A DNA stretch of 46,935 nucleotides from a virus. Position numbers and translations under genes: made by a program. Shown here piece after piece: positions 1 through 40,723 of this stretch (positions within the stretch are counted from its first letter, which is position 1; the number at the start of each line of letters is the position of its first letter). The notes beneath the pieces are model-generated. The model did no database searches, was not told the origin of the DNA, and worked only from the letters and a program-made list of their open reading frames with translations. The stretch is taken from the IMG/VR virus record IMGVR_UViG_3300033182_000856, positions 1 through 46,935 of that record; one strand, given 5' to 3'.

Positions 1-171
1 CAACAACTAAACTTACTTTTATCATTACTTGCTGAAGGTTATAGTTGTGTTGTTATTGATATTGATGAAGTAAGAGAAAAATTAGAAGACCCTCTCACTA
101 AGATTTATGGAGATAAAATTAAATTTCAACCTTTAGGTACTATGGCCGAAGGAATAAAAATCATATTATGA
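1..171 (+). CDS. C-terminal fragment of an unidentified protein (5' end outside window)
   Basis: An open frame enters from the left edge and stops with TGA at 169-171, giving the last 56 residues of a protein (ends GTMAEGIKIIL). Its stop overlaps the ATG of the next glycosyltransferase (ATGA), so it belongs to the same operon. The fragment contains VVIDIDEVREKL but too little is present to recognise a family. By position it is probably another sugar-nucleotide or glycan gene; that is inference only. Confidence 0.7.
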   Translation, partial: QQLNLLLSLLAEGYSCVVIDIDEVREKLEDPLTKIYGDKIKFQPLGTMAEGIKIIL

Positions 172-902
172 GATTAACAATAGTTTCCGCATTTTGGAAT
201 GCGTCTGATTATATTGAAAAATGTATCATGTCAGTGAAGAATCAAACCTTCACTGATTTTGTTATGTACCTTATTGATGACATCTCGACTGATGATACGG
301 TTAATAAAATCAAAAATGTCATTGGTGATGATGATAGATTCAGATTGATTGTTAACTCAGAGAAAAAATACAAATTGAAGAATTTAGATGACTTAATTAT
401 CGATGATGACCTAATCAATGATGAAGATGTTATTATTGAATTGGATGGTGATGATTGGTTATTTGACGAAAACGTACTACAGAAAATATTTGATAGATAT
501 ACTAAAAATAAAAACCTTTGGATGACTAATGGTAGTTTTATTTACTCAAACGGTCGTATTGGTTTTGCATCAAAAGTGAATCCTTCAACAGTAAGACGGG
601 ACCCATTTACTCTTTCACACCTAAGAACATGGAAAGCACACTTATGGAGGTCTATAGAAGAAGAATCGTTTATTGGACCCGACGGTCAGTACTTTAGGTC
701 CGCACCTGATGTTGCATATTCATTCCCAATGGTGGAAATGGCTGGTGATAAACATTATGAATTTATATCTGATATTATGTATGTTTATAATGCGGAAAGT
801 CCTTATAACGAACATAAACCTAATAGTTCAGATGGTGGACTACAATCTCAATCAAATAATGCTAACTTTATTAGAAGAATGAAACCATATAGGCCATTAT
901 GA
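168..902 (+). CDS. Family 2 (GT-A) glycosyltransferase
   Basis: A 244-residue protein with a GT-A nucleotide-sugar-binding start (MRLTIVSAFWNASDYIEKCI, then SVKNQTF). IDDISTDDT around residues 37-45 is the usual first acidic motif, and ELDGDDW around residue 90 is the DXD-type metal-binding motif. No membrane segment is seen, so it should be a soluble cytoplasmic transferase. It overlaps its neighbours by 4 bases on both sides (ATGA), so the cassette is translationally coupled. Sugar donor and acceptor cannot be told from the sequence. Confidence 0.85.
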   Translation: MRLTIVSAFWNASDYIEKCIMSVKNQTFTDFVMYLIDDISTDDTVNKIKNVIGDDDRFRLIVNSEKKYKLKNLDDLIIDDDLINDEDVIIELDGDDWLFDENVLQKIFDRYTKNKNLWMTNGSFIYSNGRIGFASKVNPSTVRRDPFTLSHLRTWKAHLWRSIEEESFIGPDGQYFRSAPDVAYSFPMVEMAGDKHYEFISDIMYVYNAESPYNEHKPNSSDGGLQSQSNNANFIRRMKPYRPL

Positions 903-1699
903 CAATTCCTCCAATATACATAACCTGTGATTTTATGGGTGGTTTAGGTAATCAAATGTTTCAAGCCGCCCATGCAATTGCACAGGCCAAAAAAAATAAT
1001 TTACCTACATTATTTAGGACAACATCATACACACCATTACAAGGAAAACAGACCTTAAAATATAAAAATAATATTTTTAGTAATCTGACATTTAATGATA
1101 ACATTAAACCAACTTACACTATAAAAGAAAAAGAATGGGCATTCAACGAAATTAATGAGTTAATAATTACCCCCACATCTTTTTTTGGGTACTACCAAAG
1201 TGATAAAAATTTTTATGGTTATGATGATTTAATTAGAGATACTTTTGTACCTAAAAAAGAAACGATGGATGACTTAATTCGTGAATTTCCTGAATTTAGT
1301 GAAGGTGTAACCTGTATCCATGTAAGAAGGGGGGATTACCTTAAAAGCCCAAACGTACACCCAACTATTGATGAAGGTTTCATAAAAGAGGGATTAAAAC
1401 ATTTGACCCCACAAAAGTACCTGATGATATTCAGTGACGATATTGAATGGTGTAAAAATAATCTTAGTGGTCTTTCCGATAATTTAATTTTTGTTGATGG
1501 TGAGTTTGAAGATTATGAAGAGATATGGTTAATGTCGAATTGTAAAAATTATATCATATCTAACTCCACCTTTTCATGGTGGGGTTCGTTCTTAAACAAG
1601 AATAACCCTGAAGTGGTTGCACCGTCAAAATGGTTTGGACCTAACGGACCAACTCAAAACTATAAAGACATTTACAGAAATAACTGGATATTATTATGA
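899..1699 (+). CDS. GT11 alpha-1,2-fucosyltransferase-like protein
   Basis: A 266-residue protein with the hallmarks of glycosyltransferase family 11: the N-terminal GGLGNQMFQAAHAIA signature, HVRRGDYLKSP in the middle (the HxRRxD donor-binding motif), FSDDIEWC, and ISNSTFSWWGSFL near the C terminus. The family transfers L-fucose from GDP-fucose in alpha-1,2 linkage. A GDP-mannose 3,5-epimerase lies downstream, so GDP-L-galactose is an alternative donor (inference). Starts and ends overlap neighbours by 4 bases. Confidence 0.88.
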   Translation: MTIPPIYITCDFMGGLGNQMFQAAHAIAQAKKNNLPTLFRTTSYTPLQGKQTLKYKNNIFSNLTFNDNIKPTYTIKEKEWAFNEINELIITPTSFFGYYQSDKNFYGYDDLIRDTFVPKKETMDDLIREFPEFSEGVTCIHVRRGDYLKSPNVHPTIDEGFIKEGLKHLTPQKYLMIFSDDIEWCKNNLSGLSDNLIFVDGEFEDYEEIWLMSNCKNYIISNSTFSWWGSFLNKNNPEVVAPSKWFGPNGPTQNYKDIYRNNWILL

Positions 1700-2307
1700 T
1701 AATTAATTTAGAAGGTTTAATAAAAAAATATAACTTAGACATCAAAGGGGTTATACATATTGGGGCCAATGTAGGACAAGAAATTTCAACATACGATAAA
1801 TTAAACGTTAATGAAAGAGTTTATATAGAACCTCAACCGAATATTTTTGAAAAGTTGAAATCCTCAAGCAGAGATGAAGACTTACTATTCAACACCGCAC
1901 TCGGTAATCAAATTGGAGAAATAGAAATGTACATAAGCAATAATGTCAATTCTCAGTCATCCTCAATACTTAAACCCGACTTACACCTAACCCTACATCC
2001 AAATTGTAAATTTCCCGATAAAAGTATTGTAAAAATAACAAAACTTGATTTACTTGAATTTGATAGAAAAAACTATAATTTTATAAACATAGACGTTCAA
2101 GGATATGAATTAGAAGTTTTCAAGGGTGGTAGTGAAACTATTAACCACATCGACTACATATATTCTGAAGTTAATAGAGATTCAGTATATAAAGGATGCG
2201 CACACATCGATGAACTTGAATCATACTTAAAACCTTATGGATTTTATTTGGCCGAAGTTCATTGGGCTACTAAACACTGGGGAGATGCCCTATTTATAAA
2301 AAATTAA
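1696..2307 (+). CDS. FkbM-family SAM-dependent methyltransferase
   Basis: A 203-residue protein. GVIHIGANVGQE near residue 20 is the SAM-binding glycine motif of the FkbM fold, VYIEPQPNIFEKL follows as the acidic motif II, and FINIDVQGYELEVFKGG is the diagnostic FkbM block. Family members O-methylate sugars or other small molecules. Placed between two fucosyltransferase-like genes, it probably methylates a sugar of the same glycan. Overlaps the upstream gene by 4 bases and is separated from the next by one base. Confidence 0.85.
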   Translation: MIINLEGLIKKYNLDIKGVIHIGANVGQEISTYDKLNVNERVYIEPQPNIFEKLKSSSRDEDLLFNTALGNQIGEIEMYISNNVNSQSSSILKPDLHLTLHPNCKFPDKSIVKITKLDLLEFDRKNYNFINIDVQGYELEVFKGGSETINHIDYIYSEVNRDSVYKGCAHIDELESYLKPYGFYLAEVHWATKHWGDALFIKN

Positions 2308-2308
2308 T

Positions 2309-3151
2309 ATGGAAATTAACGTCATATCTAATCACTGGAGTAATACATCGGGTAGTTATGATTCAGAAGTAGTAAAAATACACAGAAATCGTACAGATTT
2401 TGATGGAATAAACATTATTACCGAGCCGCACATATGGAATATAAACCTACTTAATCAACTAAGAGGAAAAAAAATCGGATGGTTATGTGAATCAAAAGAA
2501 GTATTCAGTTACAGCACCAGTAAGATACATAATAGTGGTATACTTGACAAGTTAGATTATATACTAACCCACGATAAATCACTCATTGAATGGAAACCTG
2601 AAAAATTTCTCTACACAATACCCGCAACCAATAGAAGACAAGTACCACCAGAAGAAGTTAAAATACACCCCAAAACTAAAGATATCTCATTTTGTTTTTC
2701 AAACAAACAAATGACATCAGGTCACCGATTAAGACACCAAATGAAGAGACTTATACAAGAAAATAATCTCCCTATTGAAATGCATGGTTCTGGTGTTGGT
2801 AAACCATATAATGGTGATTCTATGCACGCATATAGAGATTATCGTTATTCAATCATCATCGAAAATTCCACATATGATTATTATTGGTCGGAAAAACCTC
2901 AAGAGTGTTTTTGGACTGGAACCATTCCAATTTATATAGGTACTGATTCACTATATGACGTATATAACAAAGATGGGGTAATAAAGATTAATTCAGTAGA
3001 TGAAATTTTAGATTTACTTCCGACTCTTAATGAAGAAACATACGTTTCAAAAATGGATTATATCAAAGATAACTTCGAAAGGTCTTTGGAGTATCGTGTA
3101 TGTGCAGAGGAATTTTTCACTGTTAAATATTGGGAAAAATGGAATGAGTGA
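2309..3151 (+). CDS. GT10 alpha-1,3/4-fucosyltransferase-like protein
   Basis: A 280-residue protein. The C-terminal half carries YRYSIIIENSTYDYYWSEKP followed by QECFWTGTIPIYIG, which matches the GT10 core (ENS...DY.TEK...G.IPV..G) that binds GDP-fucose. The N-terminal half is divergent, with KIGWLCESKEV. Known GT10 enzymes add fucose in alpha-1,3 or alpha-1,4 linkage. With the GT11 enzyme and the epimerase it suggests a glycan rich in L-fucose or L-galactose. The stop TGA overlaps the start of the sulfotransferase (TGATG). Confidence 0.78.
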   Translation: MEINVISNHWSNTSGSYDSEVVKIHRNRTDFDGINIITEPHIWNINLLNQLRGKKIGWLCESKEVFSYSTSKIHNSGILDKLDYILTHDKSLIEWKPEKFLYTIPATNRRQVPPEEVKIHPKTKDISFCFSNKQMTSGHRLRHQMKRLIQENNLPIEMHGSGVGKPYNGDSMHAYRDYRYSIIIENSTYDYYWSEKPQECFWTGTIPIYIGTDSLYDVYNKDGVIKINSVDEILDLLPTLNEETYVSKMDYIKDNFERSLEYRVCAEEFFTVKYWEKWNE

Positions 3152-3822
3152 TGAAGAATATATTTCTAAATTCATTTGCACGTTCAGGTTCGAATATTAT
3201 ATCTCTTATTTTACAACATACATTAGAATGTAATATCAAAGGAGAAGCAATTGCATATACAAAAAATTTGTTTATTAATCCCACTAATTTAGACTTATCT
3301 ATATATAAGACCCACAGGAATCAACAAGGTAATCACATGTGGGACCCAAATCACAAAGAAAACATCTTTGAAGGTATAACATTCAACTACTTTATATTGG
3401 TACTTAGAAACCCTTTTGATGCTATTATCAGACATAACGAAATTGATGTAAAAATGGGTTTAATAAATGGAGACAAATGGTGGTGTGGTAAAACAGAAGA
3501 GTTTATTAATTTTTATAATAATTGTATTACTGAATATAATAATTTTGACGGACCAAAATATACGATTTATTATGAAGACTTTATGGATAACCCAGGTGGT
3601 GAAATAACAAAAATTTGTAACCACTTCAATTTTCCTATTGTTAACAACCCAAATCTTGTTCACGAAAAAATTTCTGAAAAATCTAAGCAGAATCATAAGT
3701 TAGTTTCAGGTAAATCTACTCAGAACAATTCAAATGGAATACCAAATAATATACTTGAAAGGTATTTGAATAAATTATTAAAAGATGAGAAAATAATTAG
3801 ATATACCCATGATATCACATGA
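3151..3822 (+). CDS. Sulfotransferase (PAPS-dependent)
   Basis: A protein of about 223 residues; I prefer the ATG at 3151 over the GTG at 3148. The N-terminal FLNSFARSGSNIISLIL is the 5'-phosphosulfate-binding loop of the sulfotransferase fold, and FILVLRNPFDAIIRH is the 3'-phosphate-binding motif. IYYEDFMDNPGGEITKICNHF is the usual later helix. It would move sulfate from PAPS to a hydroxyl, most likely on the glycan made by the neighbouring enzymes. The 3' end overlaps the ATG of a broken second sulfotransferase. Confidence 0.82.
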   Translation: MKNIFLNSFARSGSNIISLILQHTLECNIKGEAIAYTKNLFINPTNLDLSIYKTHRNQQGNHMWDPNHKENIFEGITFNYFILVLRNPFDAIIRHNEIDVKMGLINGDKWWCGKTEEFINFYNNCITEYNNFDGPKYTIYYEDFMDNPGGEITKICNHFNFPIVNNPNLVHEKISEKSKQNHKLVSGKSTQNNSNGIPNNILERYLNKLLKDEKIIRYTHDIT

Positions 3823-4131
3823 ACATAAAGTTATATTTTACCATATACCCCGTACAGGCGGGACAACTCTCGAAATCCTTTTCACCAATATAGATTCGAA
3901 GATTTAGTGAAAGATGAATTTAATATTATAAGGAATAAATACAATCTATCTCAAACCCCAAGTCATTCGATGTCATTTCATGGTTATAATAAAGTGAAAA
4001 AACCCATTCATACGAAAAAAACTGTGGAAATTATAAAAACTTTATTTAAGAAAGATTTAGAATTATATTATCCTAAGTTACTTCACATAACATATGAAGA
4101 AGTTATAAAACAAGATTATAAAAATTATATA
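3809..4131 (+). pseudogene. Remnant of a second sulfotransferase (internal deletion plus frameshift)
   Basis: An ATG at 3809 opens a 32-residue frame containing VIFYHIPRTGGTTLEILF, the phosphosulfate-binding loop of the other main sulfotransferase type, then stops at TAG 3905-3907. Immediately afterwards a different frame reads FEDLVKDEFNIIRN and on to HTKKTVEIIKTLFKKDLELYYP, which resembles the C-terminal helix of the same family. The middle (roughly 100 residues, including the 3'-phosphate-binding motif) is missing. That second frame runs without a stop into the epimerase gene, but I treat it as debris rather than as an epimerase N-terminal domain, because the epimerase has its own ATG and a canonical N terminus. 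Confidence 0.6.
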
Positions 4132-5220
4132 ATGAAAAAAATAGTAGTATTAGGTGGTGGTGGTTTTATCGGAGGTCATCTCGCTAAAAGATTAAAAGAT
4201 AATGGTCACTCAGTTACCATTTGTGACATAAAAGAACACGAATATTGGAATCATGATGACATCTGTGATACGTTTGTTGTGGGTGACTTAAGAGACCCTA
4301 ATGTTGTTGCAAATGTCATCACTGAAGGTGTTGATGAGGTTTACCAACTTGCTGCGGATATGGGAGGTGCAGGATATATTTTCACTGGTGATAATGATGC
4401 CAATGTTATGCACAACTCAGCGCTTATCAATCTTAATGTGGTTCATGAATGTACTAAAAAGAATGTTGGTAAAGTATTCTACTCTTCTTCTGCATGTATG
4501 TACCCCGAACATAATCAGTTAGACCCTGACAATCCAAATTGTGAGGAATCATCTGCATATCCTGCAAATCCTGATTCGGAATATGGGTGGGAGAAACTAT
4601 TCTCTGAGAGATTGTTTTTAGCATTTAATCGTAACTACGGTTTGGACGTTAGAGTTGCTCGTTTCCATAACATTTTTGGCCCTATGGGAACATGGACAGG
4701 TGGAAAAGAAAAGGCACCAGCTGCGATGTGTAGAAAAGTTGCTGAAGGTGAGACTGAGATTGAAGTATGGGGTGACGGACAACAGACACGTTCGTTTTTA
4801 TATGTCGACGAATGTGTTGAAGCCGTATTAAGACTAATGGAATCTGACTTTTTAGGTCCTGTTAATATTGGGTCAGAAGAGATGGTTACCATCAATGAGT
4901 TAGCACAGATGTCTATTGATATCTCAGGAAAAGATATTAAGATTAAGAATATAGGAGGACAAGACTTTATTGACAAATATGGGTTCAGTTGTCCCGTAGG
5001 TGTTAGAGGAAGGAACTCTGATAATAAACTTTATAAAGAAAAAGTGGGTTGGGAAGTAACTCAACCGTTAAAAATAGGGATGGAAAAGACTTATAAATGG
5101 ATTAATGAACAAGTAGAGGAAAGTAAAAAGACTTATATCTACGAAAGTCCTGATAAAGGTAAAACCGTATACAGGAGAGAATTTGGTGCAGACCACAACA
5201 CAAGAGAACTTGTTAAATAA
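4132..5220 (+). CDS. GDP-mannose 3,5-epimerase (GME-like)
   Basis: Starting at ATG 4132 this is a 362-residue extended short-chain dehydrogenase. MKKIVVLGGGGFIGGHL is the NAD-binding Rossmann start. The signatures of GDP-mannose 3,5-epimerase are unusually complete: ADMGGAGYI, YSSSACMYPE (with the cysteine used in acid/base catalysis), SEYGWEKL (YxxxK), RFHNIFGPMGTWTGG, EKAPAAMCRK (catalytic lysine region) and WGDGQQTRSFLYVDEC. The family converts GDP-D-mannose to GDP-L-galactose (and GDP-L-gulose). It would supply a donor for the fucosyltransferase-like enzymes upstream. The longer frame back to 3907 is sulfotransferase debris. Confidence 0.87.
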   Translation: MKKIVVLGGGGFIGGHLAKRLKDNGHSVTICDIKEHEYWNHDDICDTFVVGDLRDPNVVANVITEGVDEVYQLAADMGGAGYIFTGDNDANVMHNSALINLNVVHECTKKNVGKVFYSSSACMYPEHNQLDPDNPNCEESSAYPANPDSEYGWEKLFSERLFLAFNRNYGLDVRVARFHNIFGPMGTWTGGKEKAPAAMCRKVAEGETEIEVWGDGQQTRSFLYVDECVEAVLRLMESDFLGPVNIGSEEMVTINELAQMSIDISGKDIKIKNIGGQDFIDKYGFSCPVGVRGRNSDNKLYKEKVGWEVTQPLKIGMEKTYKWINEQVEESKKTYIYESPDKGKTVYRREFGADHNTRELVK

Positions 5221-5235
5221 TTAATCATATAATTA

Positions 5236-5946
5236 ATGGCCACTAAAGGTAGAAGAAGTGAACATAACCCTAAAAAATCACGCAAAGAGATTATCAGGGA
5301 AATTATAGGGAAGACCCCAAGAAAGAAGTTTCTTTCTGAAAGTCAAAAAATATATTACCAAACACTTTGTGATAGTGAAATTACAATTTGTACAGGACCC
5401 GCAGGTGTTGGTAAATCATATGTGGCGATGAGTGCTGCTGTTCAACTATTGTTAGACGAGAGTAACTCTTATGAGAAAATCATCATCGTTAGACCTGCGG
5501 TTGAAGCTGAAGAAAAACTCGGAGCTTTACCAGGTAACTTAGAGGAAAAATTAGACCCATACATTTTTCCATCATATTACCTACTGAATAAAATTATAGG
5601 GAAAGAGGCAAGAGAAAAACTTAAAGAACACGACATTATTGAAGTTTTTGCCTTAGCGTATATGAGAGGGATGAATATCGACAACTCAATTCTAATATTC
5701 GAAGAAGCTCAGAATTCAACACCTTCTCAAATGAAACTATTATTGACAAGAATTGGGTTCAATAGTAAGTTTTTCATATCGGGAGATATTGAACAAACTG
5801 ACCGATATAAAGATAAAACACAATCGGGTCTATATGACGCGATGAGTAAGTTCACCGATTTAGATGAGGTGGGTACTTTTGACTTTGGTACTGAAGATAT
5901 TATCAGAAACCCAATCATCAGTAAAATATTGAAGAAATACGAATGA
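5236..5946 (+). CDS. phoH: PhoH-like P-loop ATPase
   Basis: A 236-residue PhoH-type ATPase. GPAGVGKSY at residues 54-62 is the Walker A motif, IIIVRPAVEAEEKLGALPGNLEEKL is the PhoH signature written here only as a landmark, and ILIFEEAQN is Walker B. ISGDIEQTDR is the sensor region. PhoH is common in marine T4-like phages; its role (RNA metabolism, phosphate stress) is unsettled. It follows the epimerase after 15 bases and overlaps the next gene by 4, so it is part of the leading operon. Confidence 0.9.
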   Translation: MATKGRRSEHNPKKSRKEIIREIIGKTPRKKFLSESQKIYYQTLCDSEITICTGPAGVGKSYVAMSAAVQLLLDESNSYEKIIIVRPAVEAEEKLGALPGNLEEKLDPYIFPSYYLLNKIIGKEAREKLKEHDIIEVFALAYMRGMNIDNSILIFEEAQNSTPSQMKLLLTRIGFNSKFFISGDIEQTDRYKDKTQSGLYDAMSKFTDLDEVGTFDFGTEDIIRNPIISKILKKYE

Positions 5947-6542
5947 AAATAGCATTTGAAGTTAATGGTGTGTTGAGAAATACTTTTGGTAAGGCTGAAG
6001 AGGTTTACCAAAAGTTTTTCATTGATGATTATGTTGCTGAAGAAGGTGAAGAGGAATTTGAATATAAATTAAATCTACCTATTACCTCAACAACTTTGAG
6101 TAGTCACTTCGTGTTTCAAGACGAAGAAAGACTTATGGAATTCTTTTATGTGGATTTCCCAATGAATATTTTTGGACATTCTCAATCCACCGAAAACTCA
6201 ACATTTCAGGATTTGAATGACATCTACAAAGATTTACGTGACGACCACGAATTGGTCATCATATCTAATGAGATTGAAAAATCTAAACCAGCAACTTTGT
6301 TCTTCTTATCTAAGTTTGGATGTATGTTTGAAAAGATAGTTTTCTATAACCAATACACCGAGGATAACGTTTTAAGTGAATTTGAATTGATTATTTCTGC
6401 TCAACCACAAATTTTAGAAAAAGAGCACAACTATAAAACAGTAAAATATAAAACCACATATAATGAAAATGTTGAGTCGGATTTCGAAATTGAAACTCTG
6501 AAAGAATTCAAAGACTTATATGAAAAACTTGATTTGAAATGA
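5943..6542 (+). CDS. Degenerate HAD-like protein
   Basis: A 199-residue protein. The start MKIAFEVNGVLRNTF looks like the first motif of HAD hydrolases (DxDGxxR), but the nucleophile Asp is Glu6 and the second Asp is Asn8. Later, HELVIISNEIEKSKPATLFFLSKFG resembles HAD motif II/III, with Ser in place. The expected catalytic residues are therefore missing, so it is unlikely to be a phosphatase and may be a structural or binding homologue. It sits in a chain of ATGA overlaps between phoH and glycosyltransferases. Confidence 0.5.
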   Translation: MKIAFEVNGVLRNTFGKAEEVYQKFFIDDYVAEEGEEEFEYKLNLPITSTTLSSHFVFQDEERLMEFFYVDFPMNIFGHSQSTENSTFQDLNDIYKDLRDDHELVIISNEIEKSKPATLFFLSKFGCMFEKIVFYNQYTEDNVLSEFELIISAQPQILEKEHNYKTVKYKTTYNENVESDFEIETLKEFKDLYEKLDLK

Positions 6543-6823
6543 TAGAGATTTTAGGACACACTTATTACATCGATATGGATGTATTGGAAAACTTTGTAGA
6601 ATTGAAAGACTTCAAACCCAAAGAGGAGGAAGATAAAGACCACCAACATTTCTCAATTATTAAATTTGAACTTATCAAAATGATGATTGAAGTGGTATTA
6701 ACAGAACGAATGGATGACATGGATGAGAATTTAGGGATGCACAATGCAAGAAGTACAAGTATTCCCTTTCGGATTGCCTTTAATACATTATTAAGACATA
6801 ACATTATTAAATATATTGACTAA
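6539..6823 (+). CDS. Hypothetical protein, 94 aa
   Basis: A small acidic protein with two likely helices (FSIIKFELIKMMIEVVLTER and a C-terminal IPFRIAFNTLLRHNIIKYI). I do not recognise a family. It overlaps the upstream gene by 4 bases and the next glycosyltransferase by one, so it is expressed with them. No signal peptide or membrane segment. Confidence 0.75.
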   Translation: MIEILGHTYYIDMDVLENFVELKDFKPKEEEDKDHQHFSIIKFELIKMMIEVVLTERMDDMDENLGMHNARSTSIPFRIAFNTLLRHNIIKYID

Positions 6824-7890
6824 TGGACCAAGACACTATTAAAAAAGTAGAACTTTCGATTGAAAATTTGAAAGAAAAAACCTCAAGAATTTACCTTATG
6901 GTACAAGACACAAAAGGTAATGCAAAAGCGGGTATTCGTTATATATACCAAATCGCATTAACATTAAAGAATAATGGTTTCAACCCAATCATTCTACACG
7001 AATCAAACGACTATACAGGTGTTGGTGAATGGATGGGTGAGGAGTACATGGAAATTCCACACCAATCCATTGAAGGGCAAAACCTACAGATTTCACCTGA
7101 GGACTTTGTTATTGTACCTGAATTGTATGGTCACGTAATGGAACAAATTAAGAATTTGCCTTGTGGTAAAATCGTAATGTGTCAAGCCTACGATTACATG
7201 TTGGAAACGATTCAACCTGGTATGAATTGGGCGTTGAATGGATTCTTAAAAGGTATTACAACCAATGAAACACAAAAAACATTTATCAATGGTATTATGA
7301 AGAATACCTCGTTGGATGTTATTACACCATTGATTCCTGAATCATTCACTAAGAAACCTATTCCACCAAAACCAATTATTGCTATCCATACTCGTGACCA
7401 AAGAGACACAATGAAACTTATTAAGTCTTTCTATTTGAAGTATCCACAATTTAGATGGATTACCTTCCGTGATATGAGAGGTCTTTCTCAAGAGGAATTT
7501 GTGACTAATCTACAAGAATCATTCGTTTCTGTATGGATTGACGATATCAGTGGATTTGGCACATACCCATTAGAAAGTATGGCGTGTGGTACACCAGTAA
7601 TCGGTAAAGTACCGAATATGAAACCTGAGTGGATGTCAGACACAAACGGTGTTTGGACATATGAAATTAACAATATGGTAGATATTGTTGCTGAGTATAC
7701 ACAAAACTGGTTGGAGGATAACATATCAGAACAACTATATACTTCAGGTTTAGAAACCGCATCTACCTATCAGAATATGACTGAATTTGAATCTGAAGTA
7801 GTATCTACATTCAGTACTTACCTTTCAGTAAGATTAGAAAACTTCCAAACACAATTGGATAAATTAACAGTAACAGAAGAAACAGAGTAA
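6823..7890 (+). CDS. GT-B fold glycosyltransferase
   Basis: A 355-residue protein. The C-terminal half has the GT-B donor-binding pattern, with SGFGTYPLESMACGTPVIGKV around residues 243-264 (the E-x7-E type motif of GT4-like enzymes) after a strand/helix region. IAIHTRDQRDTMKLIKSF opens the second Rossmann domain. The N-terminal half begins after a short helix with RIYLMVQDTKGNAKAGIRYI. Substrates are unknown. The stop is followed after 2 bases by another glycosyltransferase. Confidence 0.75.
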   Translation: MDQDTIKKVELSIENLKEKTSRIYLMVQDTKGNAKAGIRYIYQIALTLKNNGFNPIILHESNDYTGVGEWMGEEYMEIPHQSIEGQNLQISPEDFVIVPELYGHVMEQIKNLPCGKIVMCQAYDYMLETIQPGMNWALNGFLKGITTNETQKTFINGIMKNTSLDVITPLIPESFTKKPIPPKPIIAIHTRDQRDTMKLIKSFYLKYPQFRWITFRDMRGLSQEEFVTNLQESFVSVWIDDISGFGTYPLESMACGTPVIGKVPNMKPEWMSDTNGVWTYEINNMVDIVAEYTQNWLEDNISEQLYTSGLETASTYQNMTEFESEVVSTFSTYLSVRLENFQTQLDKLTVTEETE

Positions 7891-7892
7891 CC

Positions 7893-8690
7893 ATGAAAGA
7901 TATATCAGTAATCCTTCCAGTAGAAAGTTCAAAACATAAGAACTTTTCAGAGTTATTTACCAACGCAATTGTATCGGTAAAAAATCAAACAGTACAACCA
8001 AAAGAATTGGTCTTAGTCCACACAAACGAAGAATCGTTAGTCACATACTTAAACGATTTTGATTTCAGTGGATTGACTGTCAACATGGTTGAAAATAAAG
8101 GAAATTCAGATTTCGCATCTCAAATGAATTTAGGTGTTGAAAAAGCAACTTCTGAATGGGTATCGTTCTTGGAATTTGATGATGAATACGCATCAATTTG
8201 GTTTAAGAATGTACAAGAATATATTGAAGCACATCCTGATGTTAAATCATTTCTTTCGTTAGTTGTTGATGTCGATGAAAAAGGAACATTCGCAGGATTC
8301 ACTAATGAGGCTACTTTTGCGGCATCTATGAATACTGAAATTGGTTACTTGACTAATGAGGTATTATTAGACTACCAAAACTTCCAATCTGCGGGTATGG
8401 TAATCAAAAGAGATACCTATCAAGAATTGGGTGGTTTCAAACCATCGATTAAACTAACGTTTGTTTATGAATTCTTATTACGTTTGACATATAACTCAAC
8501 TAAAATTATGACCATCCCAAGAATCGGTTATAAACACCTTAATATGAGAGAAGGTTCAATCTTCTGGAATTACAAAAACGGTGAAAACAAAGTAACTGAA
8601 GACGAAGTTAAATTTTGGTTAGACTCAGCAAAAAAAGAACATTTCTTCACAGAAGACAGAAATATAAAATACGAACCTGAAAATGTTTAA
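7893..8690 (+). CDS. Family 2-like glycosyltransferase
   Basis: A 265-residue GT-A protein. ISVILPVES then SVKNQTVQPKELVLVHTNEE is the N-terminal donor-binding half, NKGNSDFASQMNLGVEKA is the usual second block, and FLEFDDEYA is a DXD-like site (EFDDE). GMVIKRDTYQELGGFKPSI matches the later conserved region. It overlaps the late sigma gene by one base (TAATG), so the last cassette enzyme and the late regulator are coupled. Confidence 0.8.
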   Translation: MKDISVILPVESSKHKNFSELFTNAIVSVKNQTVQPKELVLVHTNEESLVTYLNDFDFSGLTVNMVENKGNSDFASQMNLGVEKATSEWVSFLEFDDEYASIWFKNVQEYIEAHPDVKSFLSLVVDVDEKGTFAGFTNEATFAASMNTEIGYLTNEVLLDYQNFQSAGMVIKRDTYQELGGFKPSIKLTFVYEFLLRLTYNSTKIMTIPRIGYKHLNMREGSIFWNYKNGENKVTEDEVKFWLDSAKKEHFFTEDRNIKYEPENV

Positions 8691-9445
8691 TGCTGTTATC
8701 AGGAAATACAAATTCGCTGGAACCTACCCCAACTAAAAAAAGGGGTAGGAAGCCGAAGACTACGACAAATTATTTTGACGTTAGAGAGGAACAAGCAGTC
8801 ATAAGGTTCCTTTCAGCCTCTACCTACCAAGAGAAGAATGAGATTTATAATGAATATCTCAGAGCACCTCTTGACAAGATGATTGAATCTATTATTAGAC
8901 GTTACAAACTATATCGTAAAGGTATGGAGTTCCAAGATATACATGTAGATACTCACTCATTCTTAATCACAAAGGTAGACAAATTCAAACCAGCAAAAGG
9001 TAAGAAGGCATATTCTTATTTTGGAACCATATGTAAAAATTATTTGATGGGTCAAATCATCAAAGACCAAAAGGACCAAAACAGAAAGATTTCTTACGAA
9101 GACATTTCAACCTCATTAGAAAATAGACCTGACTTAATTTATCACTTAGAACATGACAAAATTGAACCGAGCCAAGTAATCAAACATTTCTTAAAAGAAA
9201 TGGAAGATTATATGGAAGATACAAACTTAAACAAAAATGAAGTCAAATTGGGATATGCATTAATGGAGTTGTTTGAAAATTACGAAACCATCTTCATTGG
9301 TACCGATAATAATAAATTCAATAAAAATATCATATTACTTTCATTGAGAGAGATGACAAATATGTCGACTAAAGAGATTAGGACCTCAATGAAAAAATAC
9401 AAGACTTTGTACTACGAATTGGTCAAAAAAATCAATAATCTATAA
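8690..9445 (+). CDS. gp55-like late-transcription sigma factor
   Basis: A 251-residue protein. After a basic N-terminal tail (KKRGRKPKTTT) comes a sigma region 2-like segment: DIHVDTHSFLITKVDKFKP, then AYSYFGTICKNYLMGQIIK, in the pattern used to bind core polymerase and melt the -10 element (F.P.KG..F..Y....RN). KNEVKLGYALMELF and a C-terminal helix follow. T4 gp55 is the divergent sigma that directs late transcription from a -10-like element only. This fits the repeated TATTTATA motif found before virion genes in this window. Confidence 0.75.
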   Translation: MLLSGNTNSLEPTPTKKRGRKPKTTTNYFDVREEQAVIRFLSASTYQEKNEIYNEYLRAPLDKMIESIIRRYKLYRKGMEFQDIHVDTHSFLITKVDKFKPAKGKKAYSYFGTICKNYLMGQIIKDQKDQNRKISYEDISTSLENRPDLIYHLEHDKIEPSQVIKHFLKEMEDYMEDTNLNKNEVKLGYALMELFENYETIFIGTDNNKFNKNIILLSLREMTNMSTKEIRTSMKKYKTLYYELVKKINNL

Positions 9446-33329: not shown

Positions 33330-33366
33330 ATTTTGGAAAATGTGTAGTCCGTTACATTTTTTGTGT

Positions 33367-33374
33367 TATATTTG
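33367..33374 (+). promoter_or_regulatory. Host-type -7 element for clpC-like gene
   Basis: TATATTTG fits TAnnTTTG exactly; no good TTG lies at the right distance (only GTG), so the -33 is weak. Predicted start near 33378 supports ATG 33400 as the true start. Confidence 0.5.
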
Positions 33375-33399
33375 TAGAGTCAAAATAAAAAGAACAACT

Positions 33400-35418
33400 A
33401 TGATTGAATCTGTAGACCCGAACGAAAGTTCAAAAGGAAGAAAGGAAAGAGGACCAAAATCAGGAACACCTGTTTTAGATAATTTCTCACGTGACTTAAT
33501 CAGACTTGCCGAACAAGGTAAGTTGGACCCTGTTGTGGGTCGTGACCGTGAAATTGACCGTATTGCTCAAATCCTTTCTCGTAGAAAGAAGAATAACCCT
33601 ATCATCATCGGTGAACCTGGTTGTGGTAAGACTGCAATCGTTGAAGGATTAGCAATGAAGATTCACGAAGGTGACTGTCCACGTAACCTATGTGACAAAC
33701 GTATCGTATCCTTAGATATGACCTCTATTGTTGCAGGTACCAAATACCGTGGTCAGTTTGAGGAGCGTCTCAAAGTAATCTTGGATGAGTTGCATGACAA
33801 CCCTGATATCATCGTGTTTATTGATGAGATTCATACCATCATCGGAGCGGGTAACTCATCAGGTTCCTTAGATGCATCCAATATCTTCAAACCAGCACTT
33901 GCTCGTGGTGAACTACAATGTGTAGGTGCAACTACTCTTGATGAATATCGTGAGAACATTGAAAAGGACGGAGCATTGGAACGTCGTTTCCAAAAAGTTA
34001 TGGTAGATGGTGCCACTCCTGAAGAGACCATGATTATCTTGGATAACCTAAAATCTCGTTACGAGAAACACCACAAAGTAGATTACTCACCTGAGTCGTT
34101 AGAGGCGTGTGTGTATTTGGCCGACCGTTACATCACCGACCGTGAGTTCCCTGATAAGGCGATTGACATCATGGATGAGGTAGGTGCTCGTAGTCAGATT
34201 TCTGTAAAACTTCCTGAAGAGATTGAGAAACTCAAAGAAGAGGCATCACAAATCAAACAAGAGAAGATTGAAGTAGTTAAGAAACAGGACTATGAAAAGG
34301 CGGCACACCTACGTGATAAGGAGAAGAAAATCTTAAAGAAACTTGATAAGGTGAAGGCCGACTTCGAGGCAAAACAAGATGAAGAACGTCAACCTATCAC
34401 TGAAGATATGGTTTATGAGGTGGTGGCTAACATGACTAAGATTCCTGTGTCTAAACTCAACCAAAACGAGATGGAAGGTCTCCTTGATTTGGAAACCAAC
34501 TTGAACACATCGGTTATCGGTCAAGAAGTGGCGGTGAAGAAAATCTCCAAAGCTATCCGTAGAAACCGTGTGGGTATCAAAGACCCTAACCGACCTATCG
34601 GTTCATTCATCTTCTTAGGTTCAACAGGTGTGGGTAAGACTCACTTGGCAAAACAACTGGCAAAACAAATCTTCGGTGACGAAGAGGCACTCATCCGAGT
34701 GGACATGTCAGAATACCAAGAGAAATATACCATGTCACGTTTGATTGGTTCTCCTCCAGGATATGTAGGACACCAAGAAGGTGGTCAACTTACTGAGAAA
34801 GTGAAAAATAAACCATACTCCGTAGTATTGTTTGACGAGATTGAAAAGGCAAACAAAGATATCTTCTCACTCCTTCTACAAGTATTAGACGATGGTCACC
34901 TCACCGACAGTTTCGGTCGTAAAATCAACTTCAAGAACTGTTTGATTATTATGACCTCAAACTTGGGTGTGAAGAAACTACAAGACTTCGGTGCCGGTGT
35001 TGGTTTCGATACCACAGCACGAATGAGTGGTGATGAGGACCTTAAAAAGGCACTCCTTCAAAAAGAACTGAAGAACCACTTCACACCTGAGTTCTTGAAC
35101 CGTTTGGATGAGGTTATCGTCTTCAACCCTCTCAAAGAAGGTGAAGTTCGTCAGATTGTTGACATTGAGTTGTTGAAACTGACCTCTCGTTTAGAAAAAC
35201 TTGGTTACCACATCAACTTCACCGACGAAGTCAGAGATATGTTAGCTGACGTAGGTTTTGATGAGAAATACGGAGCACGACCTATCAAACGAGCAATCCA
35301 AGAGAAGATTGAGGATTACATCTCAGAAGAGGTACTACGTCAAAAGATTAAAATCGGACGTAACTACGAGATGAAAATGAATGAAGAAGAAGTTCTAATT
35401 GAGGAAGGAGAAAAATAA
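33400..35418 (+). CDS. ClpC-like AAA+ unfoldase lacking the N domain
   Basis: A 672-residue double-ring Clp ATPase. ATG 33400 follows the promoter; the frame is open further upstream but that part is promoter sequence. D1 Walker A is GEPGCGKT (71-78) with FIDEIHTI as Walker B; D2 Walker A is GSTGVGKT (407-414) with [13 protein letters not shown] segment ([17 protein letters not shown]) sits between rings as in ClpC. The VGF ClpP-docking loop is intact (Val534-Gly535-Phe536, in [10 protein letters not shown]), so it should dock on host ClpP. The N-terminal double Clp_N repeat that binds adaptors and substrates in ClpC (about 150 residues) is missing. Product unfolds proteins and feeds them to ClpP. 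Paired divergently with a UVR-motif protein. Confidence 0.9.
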
Positions 35419-35431
35419 TTCTCCTTCCCAT

Positions 35432-35462
35432 TTGGAAGTTAATAATAAACTTCTTACATTTG
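35432..35462 (+). promoter_or_regulatory. Host-type promoter TTG-N20-TACATTTG
   Basis: TTG 35432-35434 and TACATTTG 35455-35462. Predicted start near 35466, 15 bases before ATG 35481. A GGAAGGAG / CTCCTTCC hairpin at 35403-35428 spans the clpC stop and may partly end that transcript. Confidence 0.75.
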
Positions 35463-35480
35463 TATCAAATTAGACAAGTA

Positions 35481-36563
35481 ATGGACAACGTAACACTAAA
35501 CAGATTTAAGGAACTACTCTCAGTCCCTTCCAAAACCTACCAAGAAGACCAAATGGTTGAATACCTATCATGGGTATTGGATAGTATGGAAGGTGTAGAA
35601 TACTACACTGACGAGATGAACAACATCTACGCCACCAAACGCCAAAATGGGTTCAACGGATATTTCCCAATGTTTGTCGCACATACGGATACCGTCCATT
35701 CACTTGTTGATGAAATTGTTGTTAAGGAACAAACACTACCAAAACCACCCACCTTTGGACGGACATACGACGATACACAATATGATGTCCTAAAAGCTTA
35801 CACTCCTGACGGAACTCCAACAGGTATCGGTGGTGATGATAAGTGTGGCATCTTCATTTGTTTGGAACTACTTCGTGTCCTGTCAAATGTAAAAGTAGGG
35901 TTTTTTGTCTCTGAGGAGACTGGCTGTCACGGGTCCAGCAAATGTGATGTCAAGTTCCTTAACAATGTAGGATACATCGTTCAATACGATGCACCTGGTA
36001 ATCATCTAATTACCGAGGTTTGTTCGGGAATTCGCCTGTTTGAGGAAAACGGGGAATTCATAAACAGAGCACAGGTAGTAATTGGGAGAACCATGGAAAC
36101 AGATATGGAGTTACAGTCACACCCATACACTGACGTGTCTCAGTTGAAAAAGAAGTCTGACGTTTCTTGTATCAACATTTCTTGTGGATATTACCAAATG
36201 CATTCCGCCAACGAGTTTGTAGTATTGGATGATGTAGAAAAGGCCATCAGAACAGGTATTAACCTGGTCAACGAGTTCGGATATGAAAAACAAATTTACG
36301 AATACGAACCACCAAATTGGGGTTCATACGGTGGACTGTTTAACTTGGACGACGCTGATGACGATTGGGATGAAACCCTTTCTGATGGTCTACATGACTT
36401 AGGTGAAACTCACACCCTTGAAGATAACGTTGTTACTTTTGATTGGGGTGGGATGACGATTCAGAGTAAACACACAGACGATACCATCTATATGGATGAA
36501 GAAGATGTGTTGGAATTGTATGAATTAATTCGTAATAATTTCTTACTCAAAGGGGTCGAATAA
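35481..36563 (+). CDS. M20/M28-type zinc aminopeptidase-like protein
   Basis: A 360-residue protein; the start is ATG 35481, since the frame's earlier TTG lies in the promoter. The di-zinc metallopeptidase ligands are visible: His68-x-Asp70 (VAHTDTVH), Asp119/120 (GIGGDDKCG), Glu145-Glu146 (FVSEETGCHGS), Asp170 (VQYDAPG) and His241 (YYQMHSANE). This is the complete set for an M20/M42-like aminopeptidase or deacylase. The fold is like PepT. Unusual in a phage; it may finish degradation of peptides released by ClpCP, since it follows clpC (inference). Overlaps the converging gene by 21 bases. Confidence 0.78.
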   Translation: MDNVTLNRFKELLSVPSKTYQEDQMVEYLSWVLDSMEGVEYYTDEMNNIYATKRQNGFNGYFPMFVAHTDTVHSLVDEIVVKEQTLPKPPTFGRTYDDTQYDVLKAYTPDGTPTGIGGDDKCGIFICLELLRVLSNVKVGFFVSEETGCHGSSKCDVKFLNNVGYIVQYDAPGNHLITEVCSGIRLFEENGEFINRAQVVIGRTMETDMELQSHPYTDVSQLKKKSDVSCINISCGYYQMHSANEFVVLDDVEKAIRTGINLVNEFGYEKQIYEYEPPNWGSYGGLFNLDDADDDWDETLSDGLHDLGETHTLEDNVVTFDWGGMTIQSKHTDDTIYMDEEDVLELYELIRNNFLLKGVE

Positions 36564-38390
36564 CTGATAGTTATTCATCAAAGAACGAAGGGAAGACAGT
36601 TTTGCTCTTCCCTTCTTTGTTTCAAAGGAATCTGTCTCATTGTTAAATCTCTTAAGTGTAAACTTAATTTTGTTGGTCTCAGGGTCCACACCTTCAACAT
36701 TGATAGACACCCCTTTTTGTGATGGGACTGGTATATAAAAACCAACGGTAAACTCTTTTTTTATCACATTATTAAGTCTTTGATATTCATCAACATCAAC
36801 AAAGAAGTCACTATCTTTCAAATCATCGTAGTACCTTTGAAAGGCTCTTTCAGTTGGTGTATTAAACTCGTCAGTAAAAACTTGGTCGTCCTCAACTTGG
36901 TAGGCATACTCATGTGGGTAATCGAATGGGAATGAAATATGTGTGGATACGTAATCCTTCAACATACCTTTCAAATTCAAATCTCTATAGTATTCGTTAG
37001 ATTCGTATAAATTCAGAATATCTTTTAGACTCACATTGTATCTAAAGAAACATTCGTCCTGTTTTTCAAGACCCATACTTTCGTAGATATCACACAGACC
37101 CTCAGTAAACTCTTTTTGAAGTCCCACTTCAATGGCTCTGTTTTTGGCGTAAGTATATACGTCACTGATTTCCTCAATGAAACTACTGTCAAAATTCTCT
37201 GACATAAACTTACCGATGGTTGAGTAATCGTCATTATCTATTTGGTATCCGTTTTCTGAACCTTTGATTAACTTGGCAACCTCAGGGTCAAAGATTTGAA
37301 GTATGTCCTTTAATGTTTCCAATTCATCATCAGATAAGTTGTATAGGTAATAACCGTCTGATAAGTCTTCGTCAAAATTGTAAGGGTCATAATAATCGGC
37401 ATCACGACCGTAAGGTTGGTCAATGGCATATTCAACAAATTTCAAATCACTTTCTTCAACTTCACCCTCAAATAAATCCAAGAAATCCTCAGGACCGTGG
37501 AAGTTCAATACCAACGTATAATCATTGTCACCATTTTTCTCAATCTTCTGTAATATCTCACTGTGAATCTTCCCCCTTTGATGGTCCACCTCACCGTTCA
37601 TAATCTTAGTTAAGGTCTCATAGTGGTTCTGACCTTTAACCAAAGATTTAATCTTATCGGCAATTGGCTCAAAACGCTGTAAGAGGACATCTAAGGACCT
37701 TACAGAATCTTTTTGGTCATACACCTCAGTATTACCATTACTTCTCACAAACAACGCCATTTTACCCCACGTTCCATCGTTTGACTTCTTATCTATGATA
37801 TAATACAAAGAACCTTCGTCTGAATATTTGTCAAAATATCTGGTGTCACCCTTAGTCGTGGTACACCATTTGGTACCCGCACCGTAATAACAAGAGGCTC
37901 CGTGAGAATACGGTTCAACAATCAAATACTTATCGTCCTCATAAATCTTGTTGGATTCATTTTTGACTTCCTTCTCTTTTTGAACCATGATTTGTCTTTG
38001 ACGAACACCGTTCAATACCGCTTGTAATCCCCAAATAGATTTATATTTGTTGATGTCTTTTGGTGCCGATTTAATCGTAGGAGCATCAACCATTGATGAT
38101 GTTGATGCCGCATAGTCAATATCTTCAGGAGTGATAGCACTTGCACTCTTATGGAATTTTTCAATAAGTTCAAGGAATAGATTTACATTGTCGGCAACCG
38201 AAAATGTTATTGGGTCACCCAATCCAATCATTTGTTTAATCATCCACTCAGAATACTTTTTTGTGGACGAAGGGTCACCGTCAATAAGTTTCTCCAATAA
38301 GTCTGTTGCATCACCAAAGACTTTTTCGTCTTTGTATTTATCTACAAGACGTTCCTTCTTTCCCTCAAGTAAGATGGTCATGAACTTCAT
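36543..38390 (-). CDS. Large phage protein with GAGTKWC motif
   Basis: A 615-residue acidic protein. Residues 160-215 contain HGASCYYGAGTKWCTTTKGD and YIIDKKSNDGTWGKMALFV, a domain I have seen in many large phages with no assigned role. The N terminus MKFMTILLEGKK looks like a T4 internal-protein targeting peptide with LLE as prohead-protease site. The rest is acidic alpha/beta. With a perfect late promoter motif upstream, it is probably packaged in the head. Confidence 0.6.
   Translation of the reverse strand: MKFMTILLEGKKERLVDKYKDEKVFGDATDLLEKLIDGDPSSTKKYSEWMIKQMIGLGDPITFSVADNVNLFLELIEKFHKSASAITPEDIDYAASTSSMVDAPTIKSAPKDINKYKSIWGLQAVLNGVRQRQIMVQKEKEVKNESNKIYEDDKYLIVEPYSHGASCYYGAGTKWCTTTKGDTRYFDKYSDEGSLYYIIDKKSNDGTWGKMALFVRSNGNTEVYDQKDSVRSLDVLLQRFEPIADKIKSLVKGQNHYETLTKIMNGEVDHQRGKIHSEILQKIEKNGDNDYTLVLNFHGPEDFLDLFEGEVEESDLKFVEYAIDQPYGRDADYYDPYNFDEDLSDGYYLYNLSDDELETLKDILQIFDPEVAKLIKGSENGYQIDNDDYSTIGKFMSENFDSSFIEEISDVYTYAKNRAIEVGLQKEFTEGLCDIYESMGLEKQDECFFRYNVSLKDILNLYESNEYYRDLNLKGMLKDYVSTHISFPFDYPHEYAYQVEDDQVFTDEFNTPTERAFQRYYDDLKDSDFFVDVDEYQRLNNVIKKEFTVGFYIPVPSQKGVSINVEGVDPETNKIKFTLKRFNNETDSFETKKGRAKLSSLRSLMNNYQLFDPFE
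36587..36615 (+). terminator. Probable terminator inside the converging gene
   Basis: GAAGGGAAGA / TCTTCCCTTC 10-bp stem with a 9-base loop followed by TTTGTTT, 23 bases after the peptidase stop. It lies within the last codons of the leftward gene. Confidence 0.55.
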
Positions 38391-40228: not shown

Positions 40229-40258
40229 TTGTCAGGATAAAAAAAGTATTTATATTTG
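40229..40258 (+). promoter_or_regulatory. Host-type promoter of the tmRNA
   Basis: TTG 40229-40231 and TATATTTG 40251-40258, 19-base spacer. Predicted start near 40262 leaves a short 5' leader (about 24 bases) for RNase P to remove. Confidence 0.75.
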
Positions 40259-40285
40259 TAGTCAGAAATGAGTTCTTTGAAATAT

Positions 40286-40673
40286 GGGGGTGACTGGAAT
40301 TGATTGACGTAGATAGTCATACGGGGCACGCAGTGAGAGGTTTCCTATCACTTAAATCTATGGAGGCAAATTTTTAACTGGCGAAACAATCGCAAAACTT
40401 CAGGCTGTAGGTCTTCTACGCACTGAAGAAGTAACTGTAGCGTAAGACGCCCACAGTGAAGCGGGTCGGGGGACATATAACCTATGAACAGAAGTCTTTA
40501 CAAAGGTGGAGAAACGACTGAACCAGAAATCGGGTCGTACATCTATTGGTGATGGAGGATGTAAAAATTCAATCACATATTTCGGAATGTTGAGAACCAA
40601 CATTGACCTAAGCGTGTAGTCCTTTGTGGTTAATGCGGGCAAGACGCGGGTTCGAATCCCGCCACCTCCACCA
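40286..40673 (+). ncRNA. ssrA: tmRNA (ssrA), one-piece, phage-encoded
   Basis: A 388-nt RNA. Its ends form the tRNA-like domain: 5' GGGGGTG (40286-40292) pairs over seven positions with CACCTCC (40663-40669), one G-U, then A and an encoded CCA. The T arm is GCGGG-TTCGAAT-CCCGC (40646-40662). After the acceptor come GACTGGAATTGATTGACG and GGGGCACGCAG, matching the usual tmRNA start. The likely resume codon is GGC at 40380 (position 95; about 90 in E. coli), giving a 21-residue tag starting GETIAKLQ and ending TEEVTVA before TAA 40443-40445. Bacteroidota tags start GE(T/N)NYALAA, so the beginning is kept and the end replaced. An alternative frame from GCG 40381 gives AKQSQNFRL. tmRNA with SmpB rescues stalled ribosomes and adds the tag; SmpB is not in this window. 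Confidence 0.93.
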
Positions 40674-40680
40674 ATAAAAA

Positions 40681-40701
40681 AAGGGGACGTAATGTCCCCT
40701 T
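40681..40701. terminator. Bidirectional terminator after the tmRNA
   Basis: AAGGGGAC / GTCCCCTT with a GTAAT loop, A-run before and T-rich after. Ends both the tmRNA and the converging 83-aa gene. Confidence 0.8.
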
Positions 40702-40723
40702 CTTTATTTTTTCTCTTTTACAA

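Follow-up and report, generated by a model that had tools for sequence, protein, structure and literature searches.

What purpose does a tmRNA serve in a phage when its predicted tag lacks the ALAA end of ordinary tags? The window, which is the whole 46,935-base IMG/VR virus record analysed here, raises this question. Judged by its gene set (major capsid protein Gp23, portal, terminase, prohead protease, and PhoH), the window is part of a T4-like phage. IMG/VR records are fragments that carry no host label. The host phylum is probably Bacteroidota, because the tmRNA promoter has the form TTG-N19-TATATTTG and a relative of the capsid is found in Flavobacterium phage immuto. This phage is the nearest isolate by capsid (~42% capsid identity). 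We detected no tmRNA in the 150 of its 160 kb that were scanned, found no ClpC match, and found neither ClpC nor ClpP among the annotated genes examined. The window also carries a cluster of glycosyltransferase, FkbM methyltransferase, sulfotransferase, and epimerase genes (168-9445), within which PhoH is located (5236-5946).

The phage tmRNA is encoded in one piece. The gene comprises 388 nt on the plus strand (40286-40673) and encodes its own CCA. RF00023 covers it from end to end in a cmscan search (model positions 1-374, 89.5 bits, E 1.4e-33; cut-off 47). The acceptor stem pairs a 5' arm, GGGGGUG (40286-40292), with a 3' arm, CACCUCC (40663-40669), which is followed by ACCA (40670-40673). 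All seven of its pairs, with compensatory changes, and the G3-U70 pair are kept in 41 of 41 aligned tmRNAs. The T arm (40646-40662; loop TTCGAAT) is paired in 99% of cells, again with compensatory changes. Pseudoknot PK1 (40332-40367; stem 1, 40332-40336/40348-40352; stem 2, 40340-40345/40362-40367) shows two-sided changes at 10 of its 11 pairs across the 41 sequences, and the 3' hairpin is likewise supported by covariation in this alignment. Across the 28 pairs tested (the base of H2, both PK1 stems, the 3' hairpin, and the T stem), 94.8% of cells are paired, compared with 36-48% in slid control alignments, and two-sided changes occur at 20 pairs. The central region, where pseudoknots PK2 and PK3 would lie, is modular and variable.

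These results agree with what a sequence-only reading of the locus had proposed, namely a complete 7-bp acceptor stem, a TTCGAAT T loop, and an encoded CCA. That reading had named a covariance model and ARAGORN as checks. The model recovers the full-length molecule with its tRNA-like domain, and PK1 is confirmed through covariation. ARAGORN makes no call in the window at default settings; at a lowered score threshold it reports the tmRNA with the tag frame that begins at 40380, and it finds the same frame in 40 relatives. On its conserved features the phage tmRNA is probably functional: it has what is needed for alanine charging, and the resume codon opens a 21-residue frame that is under selection.

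The tmRNA has its own transcription signals. A Bacteroidota-type promoter lies upstream on the same strand (40229-40258), and a strict form of the motif (spacer 18-20) precedes 75 of the 115 family loci. An intrinsic terminator with a nine-pair hairpin and a T tail follows the gene (40681-40711, plus strand; hairpin from 40681). The earlier suggestion of a host-type promoter and terminator therefore holds. A leader, GTTCTTTGAAA(A)TAT, occupies approximately 40273-40285 of the window, abuts the mature 5' end, and is common to many divergent relatives.

The tag belongs to a family that is conserved across a phage lineage. The predicted tag is (A)GETIAKLQAVGLLRTEEVTVA, encoded on the plus strand by 21 codons and a stop (40380-40445; resume codon GGC at 40380, stop TAA at 40443-40445). 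Searching IMG/VR with a 3' pattern that lies outside the tag returned 43 further contigs, and tags of one family are present in 43 of 43 as well as in the window. With loci found through ClpC added, the family grows to 115 loci; their tags comprise 52 different DNA sequences and 38 different peptides of 21-22 residues. Their consensus is G-(E/N/D)-(T/V/I)-x-x-x-(L/M)-x-x-x-G-L-(L/I/V/M)-...-V-x-(V/A)-A, in which G1, G11-L12, and the last A are invariant partly because of the search filter, since the tag regex fixes some residues. Among the 38 peptides, 14 end in VTVA, 10 in VAVA, and four in YAA preceded by V (VYAA). The C-terminal LAA of the canonical SsrA degron is absent from all 38.

The substitution pattern of the tag frame shows selection at the protein level. 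Its pN/pS is 0.48, compared with 0.90 and 1.68 in the other two frames. In the tag-independent set, with filter-fixed residues removed, the values are 0.52 versus 1.09 and 1.97, and the excess of third-position changes has p = 0.02 in an entropy test. Third codon positions are the most variable in the tag frame, and Leu12 is encoded by five different codons from two codon families. ARAGORN's own calls fall in the 40380-type frame at 40 of the 115 loci, some of them with an internal start. The proposed 21-residue tag starting at GGC 40380, with an end unlike NYALAA, is thus supported by conservation in relatives and by ARAGORN. Two alternative frames, from 40381 and 40411, were rejected: in relatives, only the 40380-type frame stays open with conserved residues. 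The tag had also been described as "rewritten". We find instead a conserved, lineage-wide family (38 peptides; 44 of 44 sampled tmRNAs) and no recent rewriting of a host tag.

Phage tags are distinct from those of sampled Bacteroidota. In a genome collection, most Bacteroidota tmRNAs carry GENNYALAA or a close variant, 9-10 residues long, and the phage tag is absent from all of them; these tmRNAs were sampled with a single DNA pattern, which biases the set toward TAACTGG resume regions. The phage molecule resembles the Bacteroidota one-piece ssrA (RF00023) in its alanyl acceptor stem with G3-U70, T arm, PK1, GGC resume codon, and Gly-Glu/Asn tag start. It differs in a tag of 21-22 rather than mostly 9-10 residues, a KLxAxGL core, and a VxVA or VYAA end in place of ALAA. 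The comparison with host ssrA that had been called for, made here with sampled Bacteroidota genomes, separates the two in length, core, and end.

A gene for a ClpC-like unfoldase lies upstream of the tmRNA (33340-35418, plus strand). The 692-residue protein retains two AAA+ modules, Walker motifs, pore loops, and a VGF ClpP-docking loop. Its N-domain is read as missing because the best PDB match, 6em8 (ClpC), aligns only from ClpC residue 135 onward; ORFs of the family do not exceed 699 residues. The KYRG pore loop does not vary among 96 family ClpC sequences; all common variants keep GYVG, and their docking loop is either VGF or IGF. An M42/M20-like peptidase gene follows (35460-36563, plus strand) and is downstream of clpC in 76 of 80 viral ClpC loci. 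Three window genes lie between it and the tmRNA; two are rare (3 and 6 of the 80 loci), and the third (36543-38390) is present in 56.

ClpC and the tmRNA are constantly linked. A tmRNA is present in all 46 of the 80 loci that were usable, i.e., with at least 7.5 kb of downstream DNA or a tmRNA in reach, and in 45 it lies 1.2-6.6 kb downstream of clpC and shares its strand; as the phages are related, these counts are not independent events, and common ancestry of the gene order could account for part of the linkage. Three comparison sets gave no ClpC match: five isolated phages, viral contigs whose tmRNAs have ALAA-type tags, and three phage-type records that bear the ordinary tag GETTLAMAA. 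The ALAA-tag contigs are a weak contrast, because many probably represent host ssrA beside prophages.

Other components of the pathway are found in some relatives. Of 43 family records, 13 have a ClpP gene with its Ser-His-Asp motifs intact (GxAAS, LHQ, RDxW), and 8 of these are among the 11 records that exceed 100 kb; ClpP was not found in the window, which is a fragment. SmpB is present in 2 of the 43 records and was not found in the other 41. Two large records with ClpC and tmRNA, of 166 kb (G027) and 322 kb (G024), carry their own SmpB and no detected ClpP, which indicates that the lineage does not always need a private ClpP. The earlier idea that the tag is tied to the phage ClpC-like unfoldase is thus upheld at the level of gene linkage, by the 46 of 46 ClpC loci and by ClpP in most large relatives.

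Phage-encoded tmRNAs are known from other lineages. They occur in 402 of 18,146 phage genomes (PMC9004378), 79 unique sequences have been reported (PMC11915505), and huge phages carry SmpB and tmRNA (PMC7162821). The tmRNAs of mycobacteriophages Bxz1 and Wildcat, Bacillus phage G, Melnitz and other pelagimyophages, and huge phages are likewise complete (PMC4131195, PMC9004378, PMC7162821). Among the literature searched, however, a lineage-conserved non-ALAA tag linked to ClpC/ClpP is found only here, and the Melnitz tmRNA is two-piece rather than one-piece. The TLD-only tmRNA of DS6A is also a phage derivative that may alter host trans-translation, and a similar molecule inhibits tmRNA (PMC4131195, PMC11915505). 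It lacks a tag frame, whereas the frame described here is intact and under selection. Jumbo phages carry parts of Clp proteolysis, as here, with genes for ClpP, ClpA/ClpX-like proteins, and ClpS; the review that reports them does not mention tmRNA (PMC7824862), while clpC, peptidase, and tmRNA form a conserved neighborhood in the present lineage.

Neither this tag family nor a link between it and phage ClpC/ClpP is described in the open-licence literature searched, which is weak evidence of novelty. BLASTN against isolated phages matched only the generic T-arm end of the tmRNA. Among 484-643 kb phages with distant ClpC homologues, only LR756508 has a full tmRNA, and its long tag is unrelated. 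In LR756508.1 (484 kb), this tag is apparently GVNNADYESAGFTAEDFAQMDGESLYHGSERKPAAV, and an additional 112-nt tmRNA-like gene has no room for a tag frame. At locus L018, a GOLLD RNA (RF02032, 194 bits, 5' end cut) occupies positions 1-240, approximately 1.4 kb upstream of an intron-bearing tmRNA; introns are known in bacterial tmRNA genes (PMC11915505).

The conserved tag and the adjoining ClpC suggest a private tag-and-degrade pathway. AlaRS charges such a tmRNA via G3-U70. With SmpB assumed to come from the host, the phage tmRNA would enter stalled ribosomes, add A-GETIAKLQAVGLLRTEEVTVA to the nascent chain, and release it. We infer that phage ClpC would recognize the tag and work with ClpP, which is phage-encoded in many relatives and would otherwise be the host's, and that the adjoining peptidase would complete the breakdown of the peptides. 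Aborted chains would thereby be diverted from the host ClpXP/adaptor pathway, and their amino acids returned to the phage. In known systems, host adaptors bind the ClpC N-domain, so the lack of this domain would fit a machine that reads its own signal. We place the probability of this reading, in which ribosomes are rescued with a phage-private degron read by the N-domain-less ClpC and ClpP, at roughly one in two. Its stricter form, an orthogonal proteolysis axis in which the degron is read only by phage ClpC and ClpP, outside the control of host proteases, is a tentative proposal that we hold possible rather than probable.

Several rival explanations must be weighed against this pathway. The tag could be an ordinary, divergent degron that host proteases (ClpXP, Lon, FtsH) degrade, with the phage tmRNA just raising trans-translation capacity during infection. 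All 38 tags end in alanine, as the filter requires, and the residue before it is mostly small or hydrophobic; the four that end in YAA might be accepted by host ClpX. Natural tags are also diverse, with 710 unique sequences known (PMC4131195). However, the tag is conserved across a broad phage lineage with a length and core unlike the sampled 9-10-residue Bacteroidota tags, and its linkage to phage ClpC is constant, so we consider this explanation rather unlikely. Less likely still is a tag that rescues ribosomes yet shields the tagged chains, for example by sparing phage proteins or the load on host ClpXP. ClpX contacts the C-terminal LAA of SsrA tags, and the absence of this end from every phage tag is what such shielding would have in its favor. 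Against it, the hydrophobic, alanine-terminated end resembles a degron, and an unfoldase and a peptidase are encoded beside the tmRNA, often with ClpP in the same phages. The sequence-only reading had proposed that the tag avoids host proteolysis; the presence of ClpC, ClpP, and the peptidase instead favors degradation.

Two further explanations deny the tag a role of its own in the phage. If the peptide had no selected function, its conservation would reflect RNA structure or recent common descent, and some tag DNA stretches are indeed near-identical in close relatives. This is hard to reconcile with third positions that vary most, with a pN/pS of ~0.5 that is confined to the tag frame and persists without filter-fixed codons, and with Leu12 being reached through five codons of two families; we therefore regard it as very improbable. 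The ssrA gene is a frequent integration site of phages and islands (PMC11915505, PMC3203893), and the locus might thus be a host ssrA remnant at such a site. We rejected this candidate, to which we assign the lowest probability of all: the gene is full-length, has its own promoter and terminator, and keeps a conserved place in the T4-like lineage, while sampled hosts carry different tags and the lineage-specific pattern has no match in genome contigs.

Phage tmRNAs are known, and their purpose has mostly been guessed; a selected, lineage-wide tag beside an unfoldase and a peptidase, often with a phage ClpP as well, makes that purpose directly testable. The lineage could also provide a tag-protease pair that is orthogonal to ssrA/ClpXP.
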